This document shows, one piece after another, positions 12,680 through 63,352 of a stretch of 64,000 nucleotides of DNA. The DNA is taken from the NCBI GenBank assembly GCA_008802785.1, contig VUYT01000009.1, forward strand, positions 62,001 to 126,000, in the 5' to 3' direction. The notes under the pieces are model-generated. The model was not told the DNA's origin and did not search any database. It saw only the letters and a list, made by a program, of their open reading frames with translations. The position numbers and the translations under genes were made by a program. Position 1 is the stretch's first letter. The number at the start of each line of letters is the position of its first letter. The DNA comes from Symmetrospora coprosmae. Lineage: Eukaryota; Basidiomycota; Cystobasidiomycetes; Symmetrosporaceae.

Positions 12680-15600
12680 TCACTCGACCTCGTCTTCGTC
12701 CATGCCCTCACCGAGCGATCCATCGTCATCGCTGTCGCTCGCATCCTCATCATCGCTTGCTGTGCTCCCTGCGCCATCCTGGTCCTCATTCATACGCGCG
12801 AGCAGCTCCTTGGTTGCGCGCTCGACTTGACCTCCTGTCTCTAGAGCTTCGACCAGGAACGGCATGCTCTCCGCCGAGTGTGCAGCCATGCTCGCGTCGA
12901 TGCCAGCGTCCCACATGATGCGCAGAGCATTCACGGCAGCGAGCTGGATATCTTCGTCCTCCGACCGCGTCCTGGTAAGGAAGGCCTTGACGAGGTCGTG
13001 CAGGATTTGCTCGTGTTCCTCGAGGGCTTGCGAAACGGCACCGAGCAGTGCGGTGTATGGCACAGATAGACGGCCATCCTGTACGTTGTCGGACTCGATA
13101 TGCTGGGCTAGCGGAGTGACGAGCTTTGACAGACGAGCAGCGGTCCAGAAGCCTGTGCAAGAAGCTGAATCATCAGTCTTATGAACGGGATTACAAGACG
13201 GTCGGGAGAGATCAAACGCACCACTGTTGTCGTGCTCCAATGCACGGCTGAGCGTCGACATGACGGTTGTCAAGAGTTGCGCGTCCGTATCCTGTGACGA
13301 GACCAGCTGCACAGCCTGGTCCAGCATGAAAGAGTAGTACGGCACAGCGATCGACTTGAGCTGCGCAAGCATCTTGTCAACAGTCTTGAAGAGGACGATC
13401 TTGCGAGAAGTGACGCCATCTGCGTCTGCTCCATCGCCGTCGGCCAGCTCAACGACGGCCCAGTCGAAGAAGCGCAAGAAGAGCGGCCGGAAAGTCCCTT
13501 CGTTCAGGCGCAGAATCATCTGCATGAACGCAGATGTGGCCGCTCCTTCGACGCTTGTGACGTGCTGGCAGAGAAATAGCGAGTTATCCGTCAGTGGTAC
13601 ATCAGGTGAGTGGAAGTGGGCGGTTCCCTCACCTCGGCAGACAGCACGGCCCTCCGCCGGGTATCAAAGATAGCCAGGAACAGCGCAAAGGTCTGCTTGT
13701 ACGTCTCTGCAACAGCTGTAGCATTCGACTGACGGAGAGCTCGGCTGAGGATCTCGACGTTGCCGAGGATTGCCTGAGCATTGCCCTTGTCTGTGCTGTC
13801 CCAGAGCTGCACGACCGCGGCAAAGAGGGTCTTCGAAGCTGTCTTCTTGGTGGCTGCCGACAGTAGCGCAGACAGGGCTGAGGCTATCTTGCCGGTCGTC
13901 TCGCCGACCGCTAGCTGCCTAACCGAGTCGGCTGTGCAGATCTTGAAGACAGCCTGGAGCTGACCGCTGACGAAGGTCGGGACGGCCTGGAACAGAGCCT
14001 CGATGGCTGAGAGCGAAGAAGCAATGATGCTCCTGCTGGCCGAGTCGACGTTCGTGCTGGTAAATTTGTGGACAAGCTGCACTGCCAGAGTGACAATCCT
14101 GCCAACGCTTGGGATTACGCGGGCACCAAGGCGAGGGCTGCGAAAGGACCCTTGAGCATGATGTTAATGTGCGCGAACGAGAACGACGTGGACTCACATT
14201 GTCTCCCGGATGAAGGCGATGTATTGCGAAAGAGTGTTCTTGCTCTGCTCGCTTGCAGCATTGTCCAGGACTACAGTGAGCGTCTCGCCTAGAACCGGAG
14301 TCTCGCTGTCCGTTGTAGCGGAAGCGAGCACGCGCAGGATCTGCATGGACCGCGTCCGTTCGAACTTGGCAGCTGGGTGCAATAGGTAGTCCTGTAGCTT
14401 TTTGGCGCCTGCAACGACGGCATCGCTGAGATCGCCACGCTTGGCCTGCTTGACAGTTCGGAGTCGGGCAAGGAGAAGGTCGAATGCCATGCGGACGACC
14501 TGCAGAGAGAGGGACGAGCGCGACTTAGCAAGTTCCTTCGCCTGGAACACGGAGCGTAGAAGAAGCTTACTCTGGTGTCTTGGTCGTTGAGTGACCAGAG
14601 GATCACCTCCGCGAAAGCTGAGACGGTGAGGAGCTTGGCCACCGAGAGCACGAAAGCCTCGACATTGGCCAACAGCTGCGCGATGTCACCCTCGGCCAAC
14701 TTCTGCGGTGTGAGAGTGTAGAAGGTCGTTGACGTCTTGATGAGATCCTGGATGGTGACGTCGAGGTCCTGCCCAGCCGACCCTCGTGCTTGATCAACAC
14801 GGCTATGAAGCTGTTTGGCGCTGATGGCCTGGTTGAGGAAGGTCAGGGAGGCTAGAATAGTACGTCTGGACGTATTGATAGGGAGAGCAGGGCTCTCGGC
14901 AGGGGTGCTCGGTGTAGACTGCCGGCTGGCGATGGAGCCGTCTGTCGCTTCCACGTTGAGGCTCTGCACCTTGTTGAGCAGGTCCGAGAGGAGCTGGTGA
15001 TAGGACTGTTGCGATATGATTACAGATTAGCTTACGGGCATATGATACCAGGCGATATGCGGAACTTACGGCGAGCTGAATGTCCGCACTAAAGTGGCCA
15101 GAGAGGGCCAGTGGCAGAGCAAGCAGCGTCGCATCCTGTGTCTTAACGAACTTGAGCGCGACTTTGTCGACGAGCAGACCGCATACGGGAGCCAAAAAGT
15201 CTTTGGGACCAAGCACGTCGACAAAACGAATGAAAAGGCGGTTTCGGCGGTGGCGCGGGACGTGGTTGGCGGCATCGGCAAAGACGCGGAGAAAGTCGCT
15301 GAGTTCGCTAATGAGCTGTTCCTGGCTGAGTGCGCGCTTCCTGCGGTACTTGACAAGTGCCGGTACGATGCTCTCGATAGTCTGTGGCAGTGCAAGCGGG
15401 GCGCGCATGAGCTCACACACAGAGGGGACATACAGGACTGATCGCTCACCTTATCAACGACTCGAGAAGAGTATGCATCGTCCCGCTGCAGCACATTGGT
15501 GCCCATGAACGTGAAGATTGGCATGATGTTCTGCACGACCTGCTCCGGCACGAGTGCGACCAGGTCGGCGATAAGGCTGAGCGCCTGATTGGATGTAGCA

Positions 15601-18600: not shown

Positions 18601-19913
18601 AAGGAAAGGATGCAGCAGCTTGCTTGCGGCGTGCTGCGAGCTGAGAGCCACCAGGATGTCGAGGGCGTCGCTGCGGGGAGGTAACATGGGTCAGTAGGAC
18701 CATCGACCCGAATAGCATGACAAGCAAAGCCTACCTGGATCTGACCAGGTTGTTCAGAGCCTTCTTAGGGAATCTGGAGAGTGTCGTGCGCTGGCTCTCG
18801 CACAGAATCACGAGGGTCGTAATGACAGCCTCGAGGCCATCCTGTTGCTCCGTGACACTGTCCATGGTGCCTCGAGCGAGCAGCGCGTTGATGAGGAGCT
18901 CCATAGCGTCCTCGTTGAGCTCGACCTTGGGTCCAAGCTTGCTGAGGAGGATGCATGCGCCAATCTTCCAGTCGTTGCTCGTCTTGCTCTGCAGGGCCTC
19001 GGTGAGGACGGGCAGGAGGACCGTCATCTGATTCTCTGCGATCTTTCCCGCCGCCAGCCGGTCGAGGTACCCCACGAGCGTGCCCGTCCAGAACCCTACG
19101 AGAGTCGGGTACAGAAGGCCTTCTGCGGCGTAGGCGCGCACAAAGTGGCTGATGTACAGGAGCAGGTCGTGCGATTTGGTCATTGCCGTCAGGAGGTGAT
19201 GACGAGGCAGGGGCTGGAGGGACGTCTTGACGGCAGCGAAGGACGAGAACTTGCCGTCTCTGTGAGGGTTGCGATATAGCGGTCAGCCGTTGCTCTCAGC
19301 GGTCTTTGCCTGCCTTTGCCACTGCTTTTTCCCAGACCATGCCGCAGCGGGCACTCACTTGAGGTCCATAATCTGGAGCATCCTAGCGAATTGCGGCGTC
19401 TCATGGTATGGGAGGATGACGGCGAACAGGTCGTCTACGTTGAACTCATTGATCCTGCGGGGTGCGACCGTCCGGCGTTAGCTTTCCTGCTGAGGACGCT
19501 TGCAAGCTCGAAGCACAGCAAGCACAGCAGCAGGACACCCACCTGAACCTCCGGATGCACCACTCGAGCACTTTGCCCGTATTCCTGACCAGGAACTTCT
19601 CTGCGAGCGCCCGGAGCAGCAGCCCGAGGATCCTGTCGAGCTTTGCGCTCTCGTCCGGCGTGAGCAGGGCGCGATCCGTCCCTTTCGCTTTTTCGCCAAA
19701 GATGGGCGTCTCGAAGCGTTCCAGACGAGGATCCTCGGAGAGCAAGGCGAGGTATCCATTGTATCCCAGCGAGTGGATGTCTGCATTCGACAGGGACGCC
19801 GCCTGCCTGGGCGTGAACAGGAACGACGGTCGCGCTTTCGACGTCGACACGCTCAGGCGGGCTGCGTCGACCGAGCCGATATTGGCGAGCTGGTTCGCCA
19901 GGGAGCTCGTCAT
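12680..19913 (-). CDS. UTP10: U3 snoRNP / SSU processome protein UTP10 (HEATR1)
   Basis: Eleven exons close in phase to 2186 codons: 19913-19543, 19454-19359, 19259-18735, 18670-15678, 15613-15450, 15381-15070, 15005-14571, 14541-14198, 14137-13633, 13564-13222 and 13152-12680. UTP10/HEATR1 is a giant HEAT-repeat protein of the small-subunit processome, needed for pre-rRNA transcription and 18S maturation in the nucleolus. The start MTSSLANQLANIGSVDAARL, the block LTPDESAKLDRIL and the GKVLEWCIRRFR segment match the family N-terminus. The tail has EGTFRPLFLRFFDWA, typical of the BP28 C-terminal domain, and ends in an acidic stretch. Alpha-helical HEAT-like repeats fill the middle. Intron 7 (14542-14570) is only 29 bp. 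The gene converges on SET2, with 148 bp between stop codons. Confidence 0.93.
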
Positions 19914-20667
19914 GACGATGGTCGTGCACTGTGCTATGCCTTGCTATCGTGCAGAGACTAGCGAAATCGCAATTCGCAACTCTGCGCCATCGAAAATGTG
20001 GGCGGAGGTGATCGGAGCTGACCTAATCAGCTAGAGATGGCAGCGTGCACGTCTGCTCTGCTCTGTACACGCTGAGATGCTCAACTATGCAGCTCTCCGT
20101 CTCGAGGCTCTGTCGCCTCCAAATGCAAATGCGAGTGCGAATGGCTCCTCGGGCCCGTAACCGCCTCAATGGGGACCACGAGCCGGCAGACACCAAGGAC
20201 ACGTCAAGACTGCTGGCCCCATGCTCACCCAGTATAGGTAGCCCGCTTTGCTAATCCTCCTGCGCACTGTTCCGCAATGCCCTCATACTCACCGGCGTCG
20301 CTATGTCTGCTTCACGCCTCGAGCGAGCAATTAAGCAGAGACCCACCTCAGCGTCTGACAGTCCTGGCGATGCCTCTCACCCCGCTCTGTCCGACAGAGC
20401 CTGTCGCATGACCACTGATGGGTCGCCTAACCTCACAGGTACACCGCCGCGACCCCGAGCGAGTCGCAAAGGCGGGCAAAAGAGCAGGCACCGCCTTGAC
20501 TTAGGACTGTCGCTACCGCACCCTGCCCGAAGCCAGTATCTCATCTACAAAAAGCCAGATCACAAGGAGGTCATATCTCTCCGCTCTGGATCCCCATCCT
20601 CATTCCTCCGCAAGCTATCAACCTCGAACCTCGTTTCCTGCTACACTCTATAGATCTGCCACTCAGA
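19914..20667. other. Intergenic region at the left border of the accessory island
   Basis: The left part is the UTP10 promoter. The right part contains copy A of a duplicated promoter segment, listed separately. Open frames here (for example 20303-20653) lie in that non-coding repeat and have no partner frame in the second copy. Confidence 0.5.
20379..20500 (+). repeat. Duplicated upstream segment, copy A
   Basis: This segment matches 22581-22705 over about 120 bases with small gaps. Shared landmarks are ACCCCGCTCTGTCC, GTCGCATGACCACTG, GAGTCGC/GGGTCGCCT with CCTCAC, and CGGGCAAAAGAG. It lies about 290 bp before the ATG of the first tandem gene, nearly the same distance as copy B from the second. 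It is therefore part of the same gene duplication and probably a promoter. Confidence 0.82.
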
Positions 20668-22012
20668 ATGTCCCGCACGCCTTCTCCAGGCGGCAGGTCA
20701 GTGACTTCTACTCAGGGTGATCTGGACCATGAGGAGTGTCAGCTGACGTGTACGAGGCATCATGCCTTCAGTCCCTCTCGCAGCGTGCAGTGCGACTACG
20801 TCTTCGGCCCCAACGAGGGAAAGCGGGTTTACGGCGGGCCAGCGCGTGGTTGGTACCATGAACTGGCCAACGAGCAATGGTTAGTCCGCGCGACTGTGGC
20901 AGGATGTCTGCTCGAAGCAATTGCAATTGCTGAGTAGCCGGCTCCGTGGGCACATTTTGCTGGGTTCCACTAGCCGGGCACACGTTCCGATGCACCAGTT
21001 GCGCGAACACTTCCGGGATAAGCATCCTCACGACCGCAGATATGAGTCGTAAGCTCGCGTTCAGATATCGTACCGATGGAAGCAGGAGAGGCTGATGAGC
21101 ATGTCGACAAGCCGGTCTCCCTCTGCTCAGAGTCAGGGCTCGCGGAATGGGTCGCCCGCTCCTTCAGGAAGGGGTAACAACTCTCGAGCGTCGTCACTCG
21201 GTAGGGGCGCAAAATCCACACTTCCTGCTCCTCCGCAGCAGACAGGCACCCAGTCTGCTTCTCAGACGTGGAGGAGACGTCCGATATTCGACTTGCTGGA
21301 GGCCGCTCGCCTAAACCAGCTACCCACGTCAGCCAGGCAGTGGGTTGAGGGATACCTCGGAGCTGAAAGTACTTCGATAAGGGGCGAAACTCTCATGAAA
21401 TGGTATACCCGGAAGCCCTATGGCCCAACAGCCCTCGAAAGGCAGCTATTCGAGTCGACAGGCATCAAGTATGTGAAAGACCGATTTATACTATACGAGA
21501 ACGAGCAATCAGACTTGTCTTCACCCATCTACGATCTCTATAAGGAGCTTCGGAAGATTCAAGACGAGGAGCGGACCCCGGAACGTACCAGGGCCGTTTC
21601 TCCTCAGACGGGAGCGACTCCGGCAGGACCAACTTCCTCTGGGCATAGCAATCTGTTGCCGACTGTTCGTGTGGCCGAACAGAAAGTAGTGGATCTCCTG
21701 AAGCAAAGCAGGACAGACTCCCCAGCGCAAACGAATCCGGACCACCTTGCGATCGGACCGTTCACCTGGCGGGAAGTGCGAGACTTATACAATTCCGACC
21801 GGCAGGCAGTCGAGAAAGCTTTTGCAACCCGATCACTTCGCGATGTGCGCAAGGTGTTCTCAAGGCTTGGCGCAAACCCGGCCATAAACAATGAGGACCT
21901 TAGAGGCATCGATCAACGGGTTCAGAACTGCGCTATCGTGTACCGCATGCTCCTGAAGCGACATCAACAGAGCACTGTGTCCAGACAGTCAAGATCTCGC
22001 AGTCCTCGATGA
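20668..22012 (+). CDS. Island protein 1: C2HC/C2H2-like module, RS linker, two W-x-x-L repeats (unrecognised family)
   Basis: Exons 20668-20696, 20784-20879, 20974-21048 and 21112-22012 give 366 codons; all three introns are phase 2. I do not recognise the family. Exon 1 encodes MSRTPSPGG. Exons 2-3 encode a putative zinc module: VQCDYVFGPNEG, then CRAHVPMHQLREHF and RDKHPH. These resemble a C2H2/C2HC finger with about 28 residues between the cysteines. A Ser/Arg-rich linker follows (SRSPSAQSQGSRNGS). Two divergent copies of a repeat of about 95 residues begin near residues 125 and 259; the second is clearer (VVDLLKQ ... FTWREVRDLY ... VRKVFSRLG). The protein ends in RQSRSRSPR. No signal peptide or membrane segment is seen. 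The last acceptor (21111) is weak; 21099 also keeps frame. It could be a nuclear regulator or a species-specific accessory protein. Confidence 0.7.
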
Positions 22013-22877
22013 GGAACAAACGCTTGGCTGCCTAAGTTGAGATTATCCCAAACTCATCGCTTACCTCTCTCTCTCTGTATTGACTCATTAGACGTCCGTA
22101 GATGCCACTAGATGCCATTAGATGCCAATTTTCATCAGTCGAATATGAGCGCTTACCTGCTGACGCCCTGTACCATCCCTAGTCTGCTGTTGACGACTGC
22201 TGCTCTCCTGCCCCGAGCGTAGATGGATGTGCCTCCGTGACAGCGACAATACGCGTCGCCGCTTACATCGTCTGACTACAGCACATCGCTGTCTTCGAAC
22301 TGCGCCCGACATCCGCAACCAGCTCTCGTCAGCAAGGCACATCCGAAAACCGGATGTGCACAAAGGGGACTTGCACCGAGTCTCCAGCTGCAGGCACGGA
22401 CGACTGGTACCACCGAACGCTCGACACCCGTTAAATCGCGCTCGCTGATATCTAGTCCAGACCGCTTGGACTCGCCTTTACAAGCCTCCTTTACGCCCTC
22501 TCCCACTTCGCACTCCCGAGACTCTCGGGCAGCCAAGCAAATGCACTCCTTCATGACAACTACTTGTGGCGGTGCTGAATGACCCCGCTCTGTCCAACAA
22601 GAGCAGGTCGCATGACCACTGTTGAGTCGCCTGACCTCACTCGTTCACCGCCGCAACCCCCAGGCATGTCCCAAAGACGGGCAAAAGAGTAGCACCGCCC
22701 CGACCTCGGTCCGTCACAGAACGCTGATCAGGAGGACCTAGCTCGCCTATAAGCTGCGGCTTCGCCTAGGGTTGCCTCTCTCCTCTCCTGTCACACAATC
22801 GTCTCCATTCTCCATTCTCCACTCTCCATTAACCTCCACCCTCGACCCCTTTACATCGACACTCTCCGAAACCGGTC
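22013..22877. other. Intergenic region between the tandem island genes
   Basis: It holds the end of gene 1 and the promoter of gene 2, including duplicated copy B. A short tandem of TAGATGCCA(C/T) units lies at about 22098-22123. A TATA-like CCTATAAGC sits at about 22746, some 130 bp before the gene 2 start. No other coding signal is supported. Confidence 0.5.
22581..22705 (+). repeat. Duplicated upstream segment, copy B
   Basis: This matches copy A at 20379-20500 (same landmarks, same order, same distance of about 300 bp from the start codon). The copies differ by scattered substitutions and small indels, so the duplication is not recent. Confidence 0.82.
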
Positions 22878-24492
22878 ATGTCCCGCAGACCTTCTCGCGC
22901 CGACGAGTCCGTGACACATACTTGTGGCGTCCGCTCCCTGTGGCAGGCAGTCGCATTGGCTGATGTGTGCTTGGCCGTCCCTATTGGCTCATCATTGCAG
23001 AGCGCAATGCCCGTACCGTTATGGCCCTGAAGAAGGCCGTCAGTTCGAAGGTGGAAGCCGTGGTCGCTATTCCCTGTTGCAAGATCACCAGTGGTAAGCG
23101 TAAAGCGACGCGCAGGGCTCCAGTGACGGAAAGTTTCATGCTGACGCATCTAGTCTCACCGTGTGATCTGTTCGTGGACCTATCAGTCGTTTCTGGTTTC
23201 CGAACGAACCGCAGATGCGGGCGCATTTCGAAGACAGGCATCCCCATGCTCGCCAACTCGATTCATGGCAGTAAGTCTGTGCGCTGCAGACTCGCCTGCT
23301 GAAACAGCGATGGCTGAAACGAGCATGACGCTCTTGCAGATGGCCAAGCCGGTCTCCTTCTGTTCAGAGCCAGGGCTCGCGGATCGCGTCGTCGCCTCCT
23401 CGAAGATCGGAGCAGACCTCCCGAGCATCAACACCTGGAAACGGTGCGAGATCCCCGCAGAAGGCCACCACATCGAGTCCGAAGCCCCGTTCGAGCTCGC
23501 GATCATTCAGACAATCGCCGCCTCCGGCTCCTCCGCAAAAGCATTCACCATCCGGAACAGCGCTCCGCTCAGGGGCACCCACTCCAGTGAGCTTTAGGGC
23601 ACGCTCCGCCTCGCCCAAATCGCCACCCCGCTCGGCTTCAGTACCCGCGATGGCGCCAGGGTTTCCCACCGCCAAAGACGGACCCAGGGCATCGTCACGC
23701 TCCGGAACCGTCCGATCAACACGCGGGCAACGCAATTACGCCAGCGACATGCTCGTCATCGATATATTGGACGCACAGCAGGAAAACCCCGGATTATATT
23801 CCCACCTCAACCTCGGGGAGGGACCAGGTCGCTTTTCCTGGAAGGAGCTGCAGGAGCTTTACCGAGCTAAACCACAGGGCGTTAAGGAAGCATTGGCTCT
23901 CTGCAATGGTAGGTATAACTACGTGCGGAACGCTCTCGACGTGAAATTCGCGAACATGACCCCGGCGCAACCAATGCAGGAGCCCCCGGCTGGTTTGGCA
24001 GGGCCTTGGAAGCTGCTTGGAATGCTTCAGAAGCAGAAGGAGCAGAACGACGGCCAGCGGAGCTCTGGAGCGACATCCCAGGGAGCTTCTTCGAGTCAGC
24101 CACCGCTGGCACAAGGCCACTACACGCTACTTGGCAAGACGCCCGTTATCAAGATACTTCGGTCACGGCAGGCAGATCCTACCCTCTATCCCGAGGCCCA
24201 TCTCGGAAAGGGCACGGAGGGTCGAAATCGCTTCACCTGGGCGGACTTGCAGGCCCTTCATCAGGCCAATCCGAAGGGCGTTCAGGATGCGCTGGCTTCC
24301 GGTCACGGCGACTACAATAGCGTGCGTCAGGCTTTCGACACAAGGCTACCATTCATGAGCGACGCAGAACTGGAGAACGAGCCTAGAGGCGGTCTGAGAG
24401 CGTCGTGGAGACTCCACGGGTTGCTTCGAAAGCAGAAGCAGCAGCAGCAGGACGCTTCTCGGCGAAGCTCCCGGGCGAACTCTCCCAGGTGA
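22878..24492 (+). CDS. Island protein 2: paralogue of island protein 1 (unrecognised family)
   Basis: Exons 22878-22906, 23001-23093, 23187-23270 and 23340-24492 give 452 codons. Exon 1 is 29 nt, as in gene 1, and all three introns are again phase 2, which strongly supports both models. Exon 1 encodes MSRRPSRADE. The module reads AQCPYRYGPEEG, then CRFWFPNEPQMRAHFEDRHP, parallel to gene 1. An RS/Pro-rich linker of about 135 residues follows. Two better-preserved repeats begin at about 208 (VIDILDAQQ ... RFSWKELQELY ... YNYVRNALD) and 338 (VIKILRSRQ ... RFTWADLQALH ... YNSVRQAFD). Each is followed by a segment with a Trp and LLRKQK/MLQKQK. The tail is RRSSRANSPR. Nothing indicates secretion; Arg/Ser content suggests a nuclear location. 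The role is unknown. Confidence 0.75.
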
Positions 24493-24676
24493 TGACGAGT
24501 CCGACTCGCCCGACGCATTCCGCTGAGCTTGTCTTTCCCATGTCAATACCCTGTTGGTGTAAGCAGCCTCTCCTCGGCCGTTGTTAGAAGCGGCCGATAG
24601 AATAATAGATGGGAGCTGTGGCCGAATATACGTTACAGGTGACAATACTACGATATGGCTACGAGATACGATACAG

Positions 24677-27306
24677 CTACGGTAGATGAATGCGGCTGTA
24701 CCCCTGTACATCCGAGCGACAGCACGGGCACAAGCTGCTCCCCCCTTGCGAGTCGCTCCGTGCGCCCAGCTCCGCTCTGCATCCGTCGCACAGGGCGAGG
24801 CATCTGCACGGCCAGAGAACGATGCTCCTCGGCTCTGAGCAGCAGACGACGCAGGTGCTCGCGGTGCGGAAGCCCGAGTCGTCCCACTCGGCCGAGTCTG
24901 CATCTGTAGCAGTCGTCCGGGCGGCGGGAGCGGGGAATTGCCGCCGGTTCGCGATGGCTGTCGACAGCGCTAGCGCAGATGGGTCCATGTGTGCCATGGC
25001 CAGACTCTGCGTGTGCATCTGCGACTGCTGGTTGGTGAGTGCACGGTACCGCCGGCGAGTCAAGGGTGATCCGCTGGTGCTCGACGCCGGTCCGAGGGAG
25101 CCGCGCTGTCCCGCCTGCAGATGCGCCACGAGGAGTGTTGTCATATCGTCTGACCCTTCCCCTGCATCCTGTTCGTTCTGCTCGGCGAGCAGCGAGTTGA
25201 GTTCGTCGTACGGCGCGAAAGGTGGCGAAGGGGAGCGGGCTGTGTACCGCTGCAGTGATGATAGCTCTTCGTCTGCCTCCTCCTCCGCCATCTCCTCCTC
25301 CTCCTCCTCCTCATCGTCGTCCAGCTCCTCTGCATCATCGCTGATCTCCTCCTCATCATCCGTCACAACATAGTCATCGTCTTCTGCGTCGTCCTCTTCC
25401 GCGTCATCATTCGCGCCTGCGTCCGTTCGCCCAGCAGTAGCAGCCTTGCGCTTCTCTTCGAGCTGCCGCTTCAGCCTTTGCGCGATCTTCTCTGGCCGCT
25501 CAAATGGCTGTGACCGCGCCTGCGCTTGCGCAGCAGGGCCGTCCTCCTCGATCCCGCACCACCGGAGCGATCTGGCCATCCGGCCTCTGCCCTGCGCAAG
25601 CCTGCGCACGCCGCAGTAGTCGGCCCACATGCTGACGTAGCGCCTGAGGTACACTTTGTACACGAGTCCGAGTGCGGCGACGAAGCGCCAGATCTCCTTG
25701 CGCAGGCTCGGATTGCGCGACATGGGGTCGACCTCTGCGCCGAGCGCGGTCGGGTTATCCCCCGCGACCCCGCCAAATGGCGCGACGGCCCCGTCGCGGA
25801 TGGCCATGGCGACGCTGGGCCGCACTGGCAGGCTCGTGGGGAAGGCAGACACGGCGCGGACGGTGGTGATTTCGTTGCTGAGCGGGGTCTCCGAGTGCGC
25901 GAGCTGCGTGAGGGAGGGCAGGCTCGGGTGGTCGACTAGGACGCTCCCAGACTGCCGGATCCTCCGCCTGCCGGCACCTCGGCTGGCGTCGCCGTCGCCG
26001 TACAGGGCGTTGTGCAGCTCGACGTACGTCGCCTGCGGAGCGTTGATCGAGGCCACCTGGTTGTTCAGGCCCTTCATTGCCGTCGTCTCCAAGCACGCCG
26101 AGCCAAACTTGAGGAGCGCGAGGATAAAGTCGTCGTCTCTGTTGGGCAGGGCGGACGCGTGCCCAAAGATGGACGCGTCGAGCCTGCCCTCGACGATGAG
26201 CTGAACGAGCGCGCGCAGTGCGACCGTGACGACGCTGCACACTGCAAAGAAGGCCTCGGGGAGGATGCGGCCGAGCGACTGGATGGCGGGCATGAGGGCC
26301 GAGTGCGCGCCGTCATCCGTGTGCAACCAAAAGTGCACCATGAGGCCGCGGCTGAGCAGCGTGAAGAAGCCCGTGACGACGAGACGCGCGCGTATCCGGA
26401 ACACGGCGGCAACGTGCAGGCAGAGCACCTCCATGATTTGGGTGAGTAGGAGCGCATAGACGGCACCTGATGGGGGCACTACTGGGTCGGCGTAGGGAAT
26501 GCTGTGGAAGTGCATGAGGAGGCCGAGGGTGAATAGGTTGATAGGTGTTATAGATGCGAGGCTATGAAGGAATAGAGTCAGGTCGTGGCATGTACTCCGA
26601 TGAGCAGCAATGCAAGCATGGGGAGCACCCACTCGTGATCCAGCGCGCGGACAAAGCTCTCGCTCGCGCACGCCACGCAGCACGCGACGAACGAGAGCCA
26701 AAGGACGTCCGCGTGTTCACTGCCTCTGATCTTATCGCTGTTGCCAGCAAGCCGGCCCATGACCAGGCTCGCATAGCCTGCTTTCGAGGCTGTGCCACTC
26801 CCCTCGGTGGTTGCGCCAGCTTCGGCAGCTGCAGCCGCAATCGCAGCAAGTCGCAGCGTGAGGCTGACGATGCGAAAGGTGGCGCGTGCCAGCAGGAAGA
26901 TGGCTGGGCCCCTGACGAGGGCGCGGATGCGGGTGCTGCTGCGGTACGGTATCGACGGCGGGACAATGTGGTGGATCCGGTTGATGACGAGGGTCAGGAA
27001 GCACAGCAGGAGGGCGTATTTGGACGTGAAGAAGGTGAAGAAGGATGGGAAATCGAGCATCCCGTCGTTGCGTGTTCTGCGTCGTTGTCGTCCATTGCCG
27101 GCATCTCCGGGTCCTGGAGCACTCCCGTCGTCATGGATCTGACCCTGCTGCCCCTGCTGCTGCAGCTCTGCCAGCTGCTCGACGACGAGCTCGATGCTGC
27201 GACGTGCACGATCCTGTGCTCCTCGCCATCCTGCCCTTCCTGCTTGGGCGATGCTGCCCAGCCGCAGAGTGTCCCTGTCCGGCAGGCGATCCCACACCCG
27301 GTCCAT
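24677..27306 (-). CDS. Asi1/Asi3-like multi-spanning RING E3 ubiquitin ligase
   Basis: Two exons (27306-26633 and 26561-24677) separated by a 71-bp intron with a GTGGGT donor, CTGAC branch and TAG acceptor give 852 codons. The N-terminal half has several hydrophobic segments (for example SKYALLLCFLTLVI, INLFTLGLLMHF, LVVTGFFTLL). A very acidic region follows (about 540-580, long D/E runs). The extreme C-terminus is a RING: CVVCCSEPRSIVLWPCRC, then LCDGCRAELGAR and LCPCCRSDVQGYSRIH. The NIVLWPC..C/CR..LG form with a terminal G-Y...H is that of Asi1/Asi3. In yeast these act at the inner nuclear membrane to degrade misplaced or regulatory membrane proteins. The start could lie further upstream. 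Confidence 0.85.
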
Positions 27307-61698: not shown

Positions 61699-63352
61699 CT
61701 ACATGATGGTCATCGCGTTCGGCGGACTGGCCACACCTCCCATAACGTTTAGGTTCTGCAGCGTGAAGAAGAAGGTGTACCGCCTCTGCTCTGCGCAGAC
61801 CTGGGCCAGCATCTCCAGATCGAGCAGTTCGACTGTTCCGTACAGCGCACCGCACCGCAGCGCGTCAGCTCTGGCTTTGGCTTTCATCACTGGAGTGTCG
61901 CCCGGACCGCACGCACCGACGTGCACACCCCACCCGGACAGCAAGACCTGGTGCAGACTCCTGGCCGGCCCGCTCGGCGCTCGTTCCCGAATGGAATCCT
62001 CTCAAACGCCGGGTCTGCGCAGAAAGGACCGCAAGGTCAGTCAGGCACGGGGCACGATCGCTGAAATCGACTGCGACTATTTGCGCGATTCGGCGCTCAC
62101 TGTCGGATCCTACGAGCGCCAGCTTGTGGTCCCAGACCCATCTGAGCGTGTCTTCGCTCGTCTCGACACCGATGAAAGCATAGTCGTCACCGCGGAACGG
62201 GACTTGCGTCTGTTCGGGAGCGGAGAGAGCGCGGTACTGCTGCGTGACGCCCGCGCGCACAATGGCAAAGGCTCCCGGCTCGGAGAAGGCTTGCGAGATG
62301 TTGAGGCCCTGCCACTGCGCGACCTGCTCGAGCTCGGATACAGGGATCGAGCGGTTCTGGAGAGCAAAGATGCGGGTCAGGCATGGGATACGTTCCGTTT
62401 CAGCTGACTACGGTAGCCTACCGAGAAGGCAGAATACTCGAGCCCTGTGGACTCTGCCCAGCTCGCCCAGTCGAAGAGTACCCCTCTGCCTGCAATGCCG
62501 TAGCTGGCATCGTTTTGGAGGCCGAGTGTGGTCCCGTCCACACCCGCTGCACCCATGAGCTGGTCGAAGGCTGGAGAGCGCGAGAAGACTCAGCAGTACA
62601 ACCGACATCTCCGTGAAGAGCAGACTAACTTAGCAGGTCATTGTAGAATCTGTACGAGCTTTGCTCCCCGTTGTCAGAGTACGGAAAGTGCCTCAGGCCG
62701 TCGTACTGCGTGGAAATCTGCGTGTTCATGACGAGCTGATCGTCCTGGTAGCCCGAGAACGGCAAGATGGAGTGGGACTAGCGTATGGCGGAGGGTGATG
62801 GTCAGCTTCAGGTACTGGCAATGCTTGGACAGGCCCGCGCACCAGGCCCCGTCTGTCCGGGTTGAAGGGCGGAGACGGGTCGTCCAGCAGTAGGTTGAGA
62901 TTGATGGCCTTGCCTATCTGGACTTCTGATCGCGCGGCCGAGAGGATGGTCTGGTTCGTGATGTGGTTCAGACCGCCGAACTCGTCCTTGTCGCCCTGTG
63001 TGCGGAGCAGTCGCGATCAGCTCGGACAATGTAGCGAGACCGTCTTGGCAGGATTGGTTACTCACCCAAACGCCCCATGCTGCTCTGAAGGGGTGTGAAG
63101 CATTCAGCGGGAGAGCCTCGTATGCGGGCCCTGGCGAGAGGGTGCGGTGCGAAGAGTCAGTATGTCCGGGGAACAGCGACAAGCTCGCCACTGGCACCGC
63201 GACCGACAATTGGCGTATTTGTCCTGGCTGTCTTTGCCCAGAGCGGGCGTAGCTTGACGTCGGACCAGTGTCTCGGCATACGGGGTAGGCGTGCCAGTGG
63301 TCGCCCCGAGTATGAGAAGGGCTCCGAGGAGGCTCGACGAGATGCTCATCAT
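61699..63352 (-). CDS. Secreted cyclase-family (kynurenine-formamidase-like) protein, with one apparent frame break
   Basis: Eight exons: 63352-63208, 63130-63066, 62995-62843, 62777-62630, 62570-62422, 62356-62101, 62014-61917 and 61832-61699, about 382 codons. The N-terminus MMSISSSLLGALLILGATTG looks like a signal peptide. The Cyclase (PF04199-type) fold is shown by WGVWGDKDEFGGLNHIT, STQYDGLRHF, GAFAIVRAGVTQQY and the ending VELLDLEMLAQ ... NVMGGVASPPNA. Family members are metal-dependent hydrolases; the substrate is unknown here. In exon 7 the frames disagree: PAFERIPFGNERRAGR reads in one frame and ARSLHQVLLSGWGVHV in another, with no GT-AG intron between. The exon is one base short for its flanking phases, so one base is missing in the GGCCGGCC region (61960-61975), either by mutation or sequence error. 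Confidence 0.8.

Follow-up and report, generated by a model that had tools for sequence, protein, structure and literature searches.

A diverged tandem gene pair with a conserved upstream block, finger-like N-termini and predicted helical repeats in Symmetrospora coprosmae

Two neighbouring genes, A and B, were analysed in a 64,000-nucleotide stretch of Symmetrospora coprosmae DNA, positions 62001–126000 of contig C76 (the window, to whose first letter positions refer unless another contig is named); both are read from the plus strand. Predicted splicing of gene A: exon 1 at 20668–20696 (29 nt); exon 2 at 20784–20879 (96 nt), which carries the first finger Cys; exon 3 at 20974–21048 (75 nt), which finishes the second Cys codon and carries the HF..KHPH part; exon 4 at 21112–22012 (901 nt), which carries the RS linker, region A1, repeat A2 and the RS tail. 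Predicted splicing of gene B: exon 1 at 22878–22906 (29 nt), exon 2 at 23001–23093 (93 nt), exon 3 at 23187–23270 (84 nt) and exon 4 at 23340–24492 (1153 nt), the last with a long RS/P-rich linker, repeats B1 and B2, and an RS tail. Joining of the exons in silico gave predicted frames of 366 (A) and 452 (B) codons and confirmed the splice architecture that an earlier note on this DNA had described as common to both genes (29-nt first exon, three phase-2 introns each, similar exon series); that note had counted seven splice junctions, and the pair has six introns. All six predicted introns are GT-AG and phase 2; their lengths are 87/94/63 (A) and 94/93/69 (B) bases, and exons 2 and 3 of both genes have lengths divisible by three. 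A YTNAY branch-like site was absent from two of the six (A intron 2, B intron 3). Codon usage was compared with that of a UTP10 frame; correlation: gene A – 0.91 (other frames 0.74 and 0.69), gene B – 0.89 (other frames 0.88 and 0.76). The test tells the frames apart in gene A and hardly in gene B. GC3 of the pair is 0.60 and 0.62, lower than in one UTP10 frame (0.69) and in the RING frame (0.77).

The pair is flanked by UTP10 (minus strand) and by a RING-finger open frame (24677–26701, minus strand). Pfam matches to UTP10 (U3snoRNP10, BP28CT) were found in the open reading frames 18731–19183 and 12680–13525; the start of UTP10 was taken, by contiguity, as 19913, in an open reading frame without a Pfam match, and with this start the intergenic gaps are 755, 866 and 185 bases. 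Of the 20 open frames scanned around the pair, 7 had a Pfam match above cut-off (U3snoRNP10, BP28CT, RING finger, ThiF, BCAS2, peptidase M3 and fatty-acid hydroxylase), all common cellular kinds by name. Taken with the short introns, these matches suit a fungus, likely a basidiomycete. The housekeeping character ascribed to the whole surroundings agrees with the names of these seven; the other 13 frames gave no match above cut-off, and some of them may not be genes. No transposase family was matched among the 20 frames. An exact (TTAGGG)4 was not found anywhere in the genome (20.05 Mb, 77 contigs), so that contig ends decide nothing on a subtelomere position. The accessory island with recent gene birth that had been proposed amounts to one gene pair lying between UTP10 and the RING frame, and the recent birth is not upheld by the comparison of the copies given below.

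A single collinear BLAST alignment extends from the promoter to the linker (A 20365–21217 vs B 22567–23454; 61% over 916 columns; E 1.7e-45). The N-terminal protein alignment of A and B gave a score of 165 (shuffle mean 28.7; 0 of 1000 shuffles as high), and 130 when the ends were removed (shuffle mean 26.5; 0 of 1000 as high). This collinear homology, with the matching intron positions and phases, supports a tandem paralogous pair of common architecture. The whole proteins are 33% identical. Substitution rates, N-terminal set (103 codons aligned, columns with gaps left out): dN 0.46 and dS 1.22 (NG86), dN 0.52 and dS 0.99 (YN00); linker alone (40 codons): dN 0.43, not far below dS 0.59, dN/dS about 0.7 (NG86). 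Values of dS were thus available by NG86 for the N-terminal set and the linker, and by YN00 for the N-terminal set; NG86 gave no dS for the finger or the repeats. An N-terminal dS of about 1 (0.99 to 1.22; linker alone 0.59) and 33% protein identity speak against a recent birth and for an old duplication. N-terminal dN below dS is consistent with purifying selection. In DNA identity between A and B, exons 2 and 3 (51% and 56%) hardly exceed the introns (51%, 35% and 48%); 45% of third codon positions are identical over the N-terminal part, which comprises the finger (38%) and the linker (55%).

It is very improbable that the two are decaying copies under little selection and not working genes. 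Their GC3 below that of both neighbouring frames, the linker dN/dS of about 0.7 and the want of recognisable repeat character in A1 would fit such decay, but the frames run for 366 and 452 codons without interruption, their introns are GT-AG, N-terminal dN is lower than dS, and near-identical intact open frames occur in other deposits.

The most alike portion of the two genes lies outside the coding parts. A block of 135 bp upstream of gene A (20381–20515, plus strand; putative promoter or upstream activating region) has 108 of 135 positions identical to the block aligned with it upstream of gene B (22584–22719, plus strand); this 80% is above the identity of every exon. Identity between A and B is 35–72% in the introns, exons and repeats and in the 152 bases that adjoin the start codon, the top value being that of exon 1 (21 of 29). 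The sole other match of the upstream region of gene B (22560–22880) in its own genome was that of gene A. The block lies 5' of a TATA-like TATAAG (22748–22753, plus strand; −130 of gene B) and, in gene A, 5' of an A/T-rich stretch, TACAAAAA (20546–20553, plus strand; −122), near the position of the gene B site; as a TATA-like site this stretch is weak. The block looks like a shared promoter element, the alternative being gene conversion between the copies; as judged from the alignment, the tandem duplication took in this putative promoter. Being kept better than the third codon positions, the block is a ready target for finding the control of both copies.

Other assignments of the block were tried and rejected. 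A 15-base piece of it recurs exactly once more, on contig C19 (207600–207614), and a third family member reached through the promoter was rejected as coincidence: within the surrounding 9 kb of C19 this piece could be extended to an alignment of 57 columns (72%, E 0.023), and the other short matches there reached E 0.009 at best; the open frame around the 15-base copy was read by eye as, presumably, dihydrofolate reductase. A structured RNA was rejected, as Rfam gave only HOTAIR_3 (E 1.5; 17.5 bits vs the gathering score of 80); folding z-scores: plus strand −0.61 (A) and 0.13 (B), minus strand −0.20 (A) and 1.48 (B), the gene B copy being one base short at either end. A conserved coding exon was rejected on a 1-base indel and on differences that are, read by eye, mostly amino-acid-changing; both copies carry an ATG at the same place.

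The segments C-x28-C (A) and C-x27-C (B), HF..[KR]HPH, the RS-rich linker and the RS tail, all listed in the earlier note, were found in the spliced proteins. The protein of gene A has Cys 13, 42 and 340 and nine His, including 54, 59 and 61; that of gene B has Cys 13, 41 and 257 and eleven His, including 54, 59 and 61. In A and B alike, intron 2 falls within the codon for the second Cys of the finger (TG/C and TG/T, the slash marking the intron). From this Cys onwards the finger reads C-x3-V-x7-H-x4-H in A and C-x3-F-x8-H-x4-H in B. Both resemble the second half of a classical C2H2 finger, which in PROSITE PS00028 is C-x3-[hydrophobic]-x8-H-x(3,5)-H; B fits it exactly, and A, with x7, is one residue short. 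The two Cys of the classical finger, in contrast, are 2–4 residues apart (the C-x(2,4)-C knuckle), whereas here they are separated by 28 (A) and 27 (B) residues; and, unlike classical C2H2 proteins (zf-C2H2), A and B carry a single finger-like segment each. No Pfam C2H2 or other zinc-finger match above cut-off was obtained for the spliced proteins or their N-termini. The zf-met2 model (PF12907) met residues 49–62 of the gene A N-terminus below threshold (E 0.19; 12.3 bits, cut-off 27), did not cover the Cys and was missing in gene B. The back-translated HF..[KR]HPH pattern fitted exactly two sites of the genome, both in these genes (2 forward, 0 reverse; control 1 and 0). The N-terminus is probably a zinc-finger-like segment of unusual Cys spacing. 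Raf2 is reported in PMC4121317 to have an atypical C2H2 finger.

Both proteins are strongly basic (pI 10.1 and 10.7; linker charge +9.8 in A and +19.9 in B). Gene B encodes 24 RS/SR dipeptides, more than its shuffles (mean 11.6, maximum 23); gene A encodes 13 (shuffle mean 8.7, maximum 16), a mild enrichment. The C-termini end in SRSRSPR and SSRANSPR. An RS-rich linker and a C-terminal RS tail are likewise present in SR proteins, and an RS-type RNA-processing factor, in which a phosphorylated linker and tail would target the splicing machinery and the finger would touch RNA and not DNA, draws on the dipeptide count of gene B and on both C-termini. This assignment appears unlikely: an RNA-recognition motif is expected of SR proteins, but neither A nor B matched an RRM in Pfam, the enrichment in A is mild, and no RNA-binding family appeared among the Pfam matches save TDP-43_C in gene B. 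The latter (E 0.0042; 18 bits vs the cut-off of 27.9) was rejected as composition; it spans residues 281–321, which comprise the last part of B1 and the linker that follows, and was gone when the repeats were searched alone.

The repeats lie behind the linker: A2 at 21665–21970 (z 11.4 to B1 and 6.4 to B2; 0 of 1000 shuffles as high), B1 at 23734–24060 and B2 at 24124–24447, all on the plus strand; B1 vs B2 gave z 41.6. Two W-x-x-L repeats had been claimed for both genes. Gene B does have two similar repeats and three W-x-x-L motifs; W-x-x-L is absent from gene A, in which W-x-x-V occurs once and a single repeat is supported. Region A1 was not distinguished as a repeat in any comparison: 405, 537 and 692 of 1000 shuffles scored as high against B2, B1 and A2, respectively; with a profile built from B1, B2 and A2, 812 of 2000 did so; a profile of B1 and B2 picked up 1637 of 2000 shuffles and did not report A1; hhalign gave P 0.17. 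B1 and B2 resemble each other much more than they resemble A2, so that a doubling of the repeat within gene B after the split is probable, or else A1 has diverged beyond recognition.

Structure prediction, proposed in the earlier note as a check on the repeats, succeeded in part. The model of B2 is all-alpha, of fair confidence (pLDDT 84.4, pTM 0.78), with helices at 8–17, 39–48, 50–58, 64–77, 80–84 and 92–107; its alignment consisted of four rows from the window (B2, B1, A2 and A1), the homology of A1 being unsupported. The tandem model of both gene B repeats is unreliable (pLDDT 47.2, pTM 0.28). Foldseek with the B2 model gave nothing below E 4.2 in the PDB and nothing below 1.4 among viral models; with the PDB and viral models as the comparison set, the missing fold match does not prove a new fold. 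No Pfam family was matched by any of A1, A2, B1 and B2 at E up to 10. By eye the repeats have a likeness to MADF or Myb-SANT-like DNA-binding domains (V/I-x-x-L helix start, P-x-LY after it, Trp opening helix 2, a later VR-x-x-F/L). These are three-helix HTH domains; the repeats, however, had no such match in Pfam or among the PDB sequence hits, and the B2 model has more than three helices and no significant Foldseek match.

A basic protein with a finger and a helical domain could also derive, by domestication, from a Gag- or transposase-like protein of a mobile element or virus, and the weak fold matches included an HTLV/STLV matrix or Gag protein (E 3.3 to 7.7, not significant). Such an origin is highly unlikely for four-exon genes with a common promoter block that were found in two copies in 20 Mb, with no inverted repeats of at least 25 nt in 19900–25000. 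Viral relatives were sought in viral_contigs with one peptide pattern; 214 stretches fitted it, and none was confirmed.

Within the genome the family has at least two members: protein searches with repeat B1 and with each of the complete proteins as query returned these genes alone at E up to 10. From a collection of 5.8 billion proteins, each search of which scored the about 8000 candidates that shared the most words, only P0002 and P0003 matched at E up to 10. P0002 differs from the gene B frame at 2 of 301 residues and P0003 from the gene A frame at 3 of 305, the A frame beginning six codons ahead of exon 4; both are uninterrupted open frames around exon 4 and come from other deposits. No family above cut-off was obtained for the spliced proteins and their parts in Pfam (24736 models) or for the exon-4 frames in NCBIfam and PHROGs; the PDB sequence search gave no recognised family, and among the titles and abstract openings listed in the literature search none describes this family. 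The claim of an unrecognised family therefore holds within Pfam, NCBIfam and PHROGs (exon-4 frames), PDB sequences and the 5.8-billion protein collection. As the collection matches are uninterrupted open frames, spliced fungal relatives may be missed. The pair may accordingly belong to a fungal family already known outside the searched databases, its finger hidden by introns from open-reading-frame collections: relatives with other exon layouts could escape a search that returned exon-4 frames only and scored about 8000 candidates. We consider this rather unlikely, the 24736 Pfam models having given no match above cut-off.

The explanation that we prefer, tentatively and as somewhat short of probable, is an old tandem duplication within a taxon-restricted family of probably nuclear, basic, nucleic-acid-binding proteins with a finger, an RS linker and a helical docking repeat. 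One fungal gene was duplicated in tandem long ago, its putative promoter included, and each of the strongly basic products would act as a regulator in the nucleus. Zinc may be bound at the N-terminus through C-x27/28-C-x11/12-H-x4-H, the second half of the finger folding as a classical C2H2 and the residues that separate the two Cys looping out widely; finger and basic RS-rich linker together would hold nucleic acid, either DNA or RNA. The helical repeat is a candidate docking module for a partner, with one supported copy in A and two in B, and its doubling in B may alter valence or the choice of partner. The shared promoter block would put both genes under the same control. More doubtful is a taxon-restricted family that combines a C2H2-derived finger with a Cys loop of 27–28 residues, an all-alpha repeat of a fold absent from the PDB, and a promoter element kept better than the family's own synonymous sites. 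Should the family prove to be as restricted as it seems, it would be a clear example of an orphan gene duplicated long ago, and the gene's origin, zinc site and new-looking helical domain would be directly testable.

Frames of alternatively spliced forms were also read. Retention of any single one of five introns, intron 1 of gene B included, leads to an early stop, as does skipping of exon 3 of gene B; the frame stays open when exon 2 or 3 of gene A, or exon 2 of gene B, is skipped. Intron 1 of gene A (20697–20783, 87 bases) has no in-frame stop and leaves the frame open if retained, so that its call as an intron depends on the match to gene B; a form of gene A keeping this intron, with 29 extra residues, is possible.
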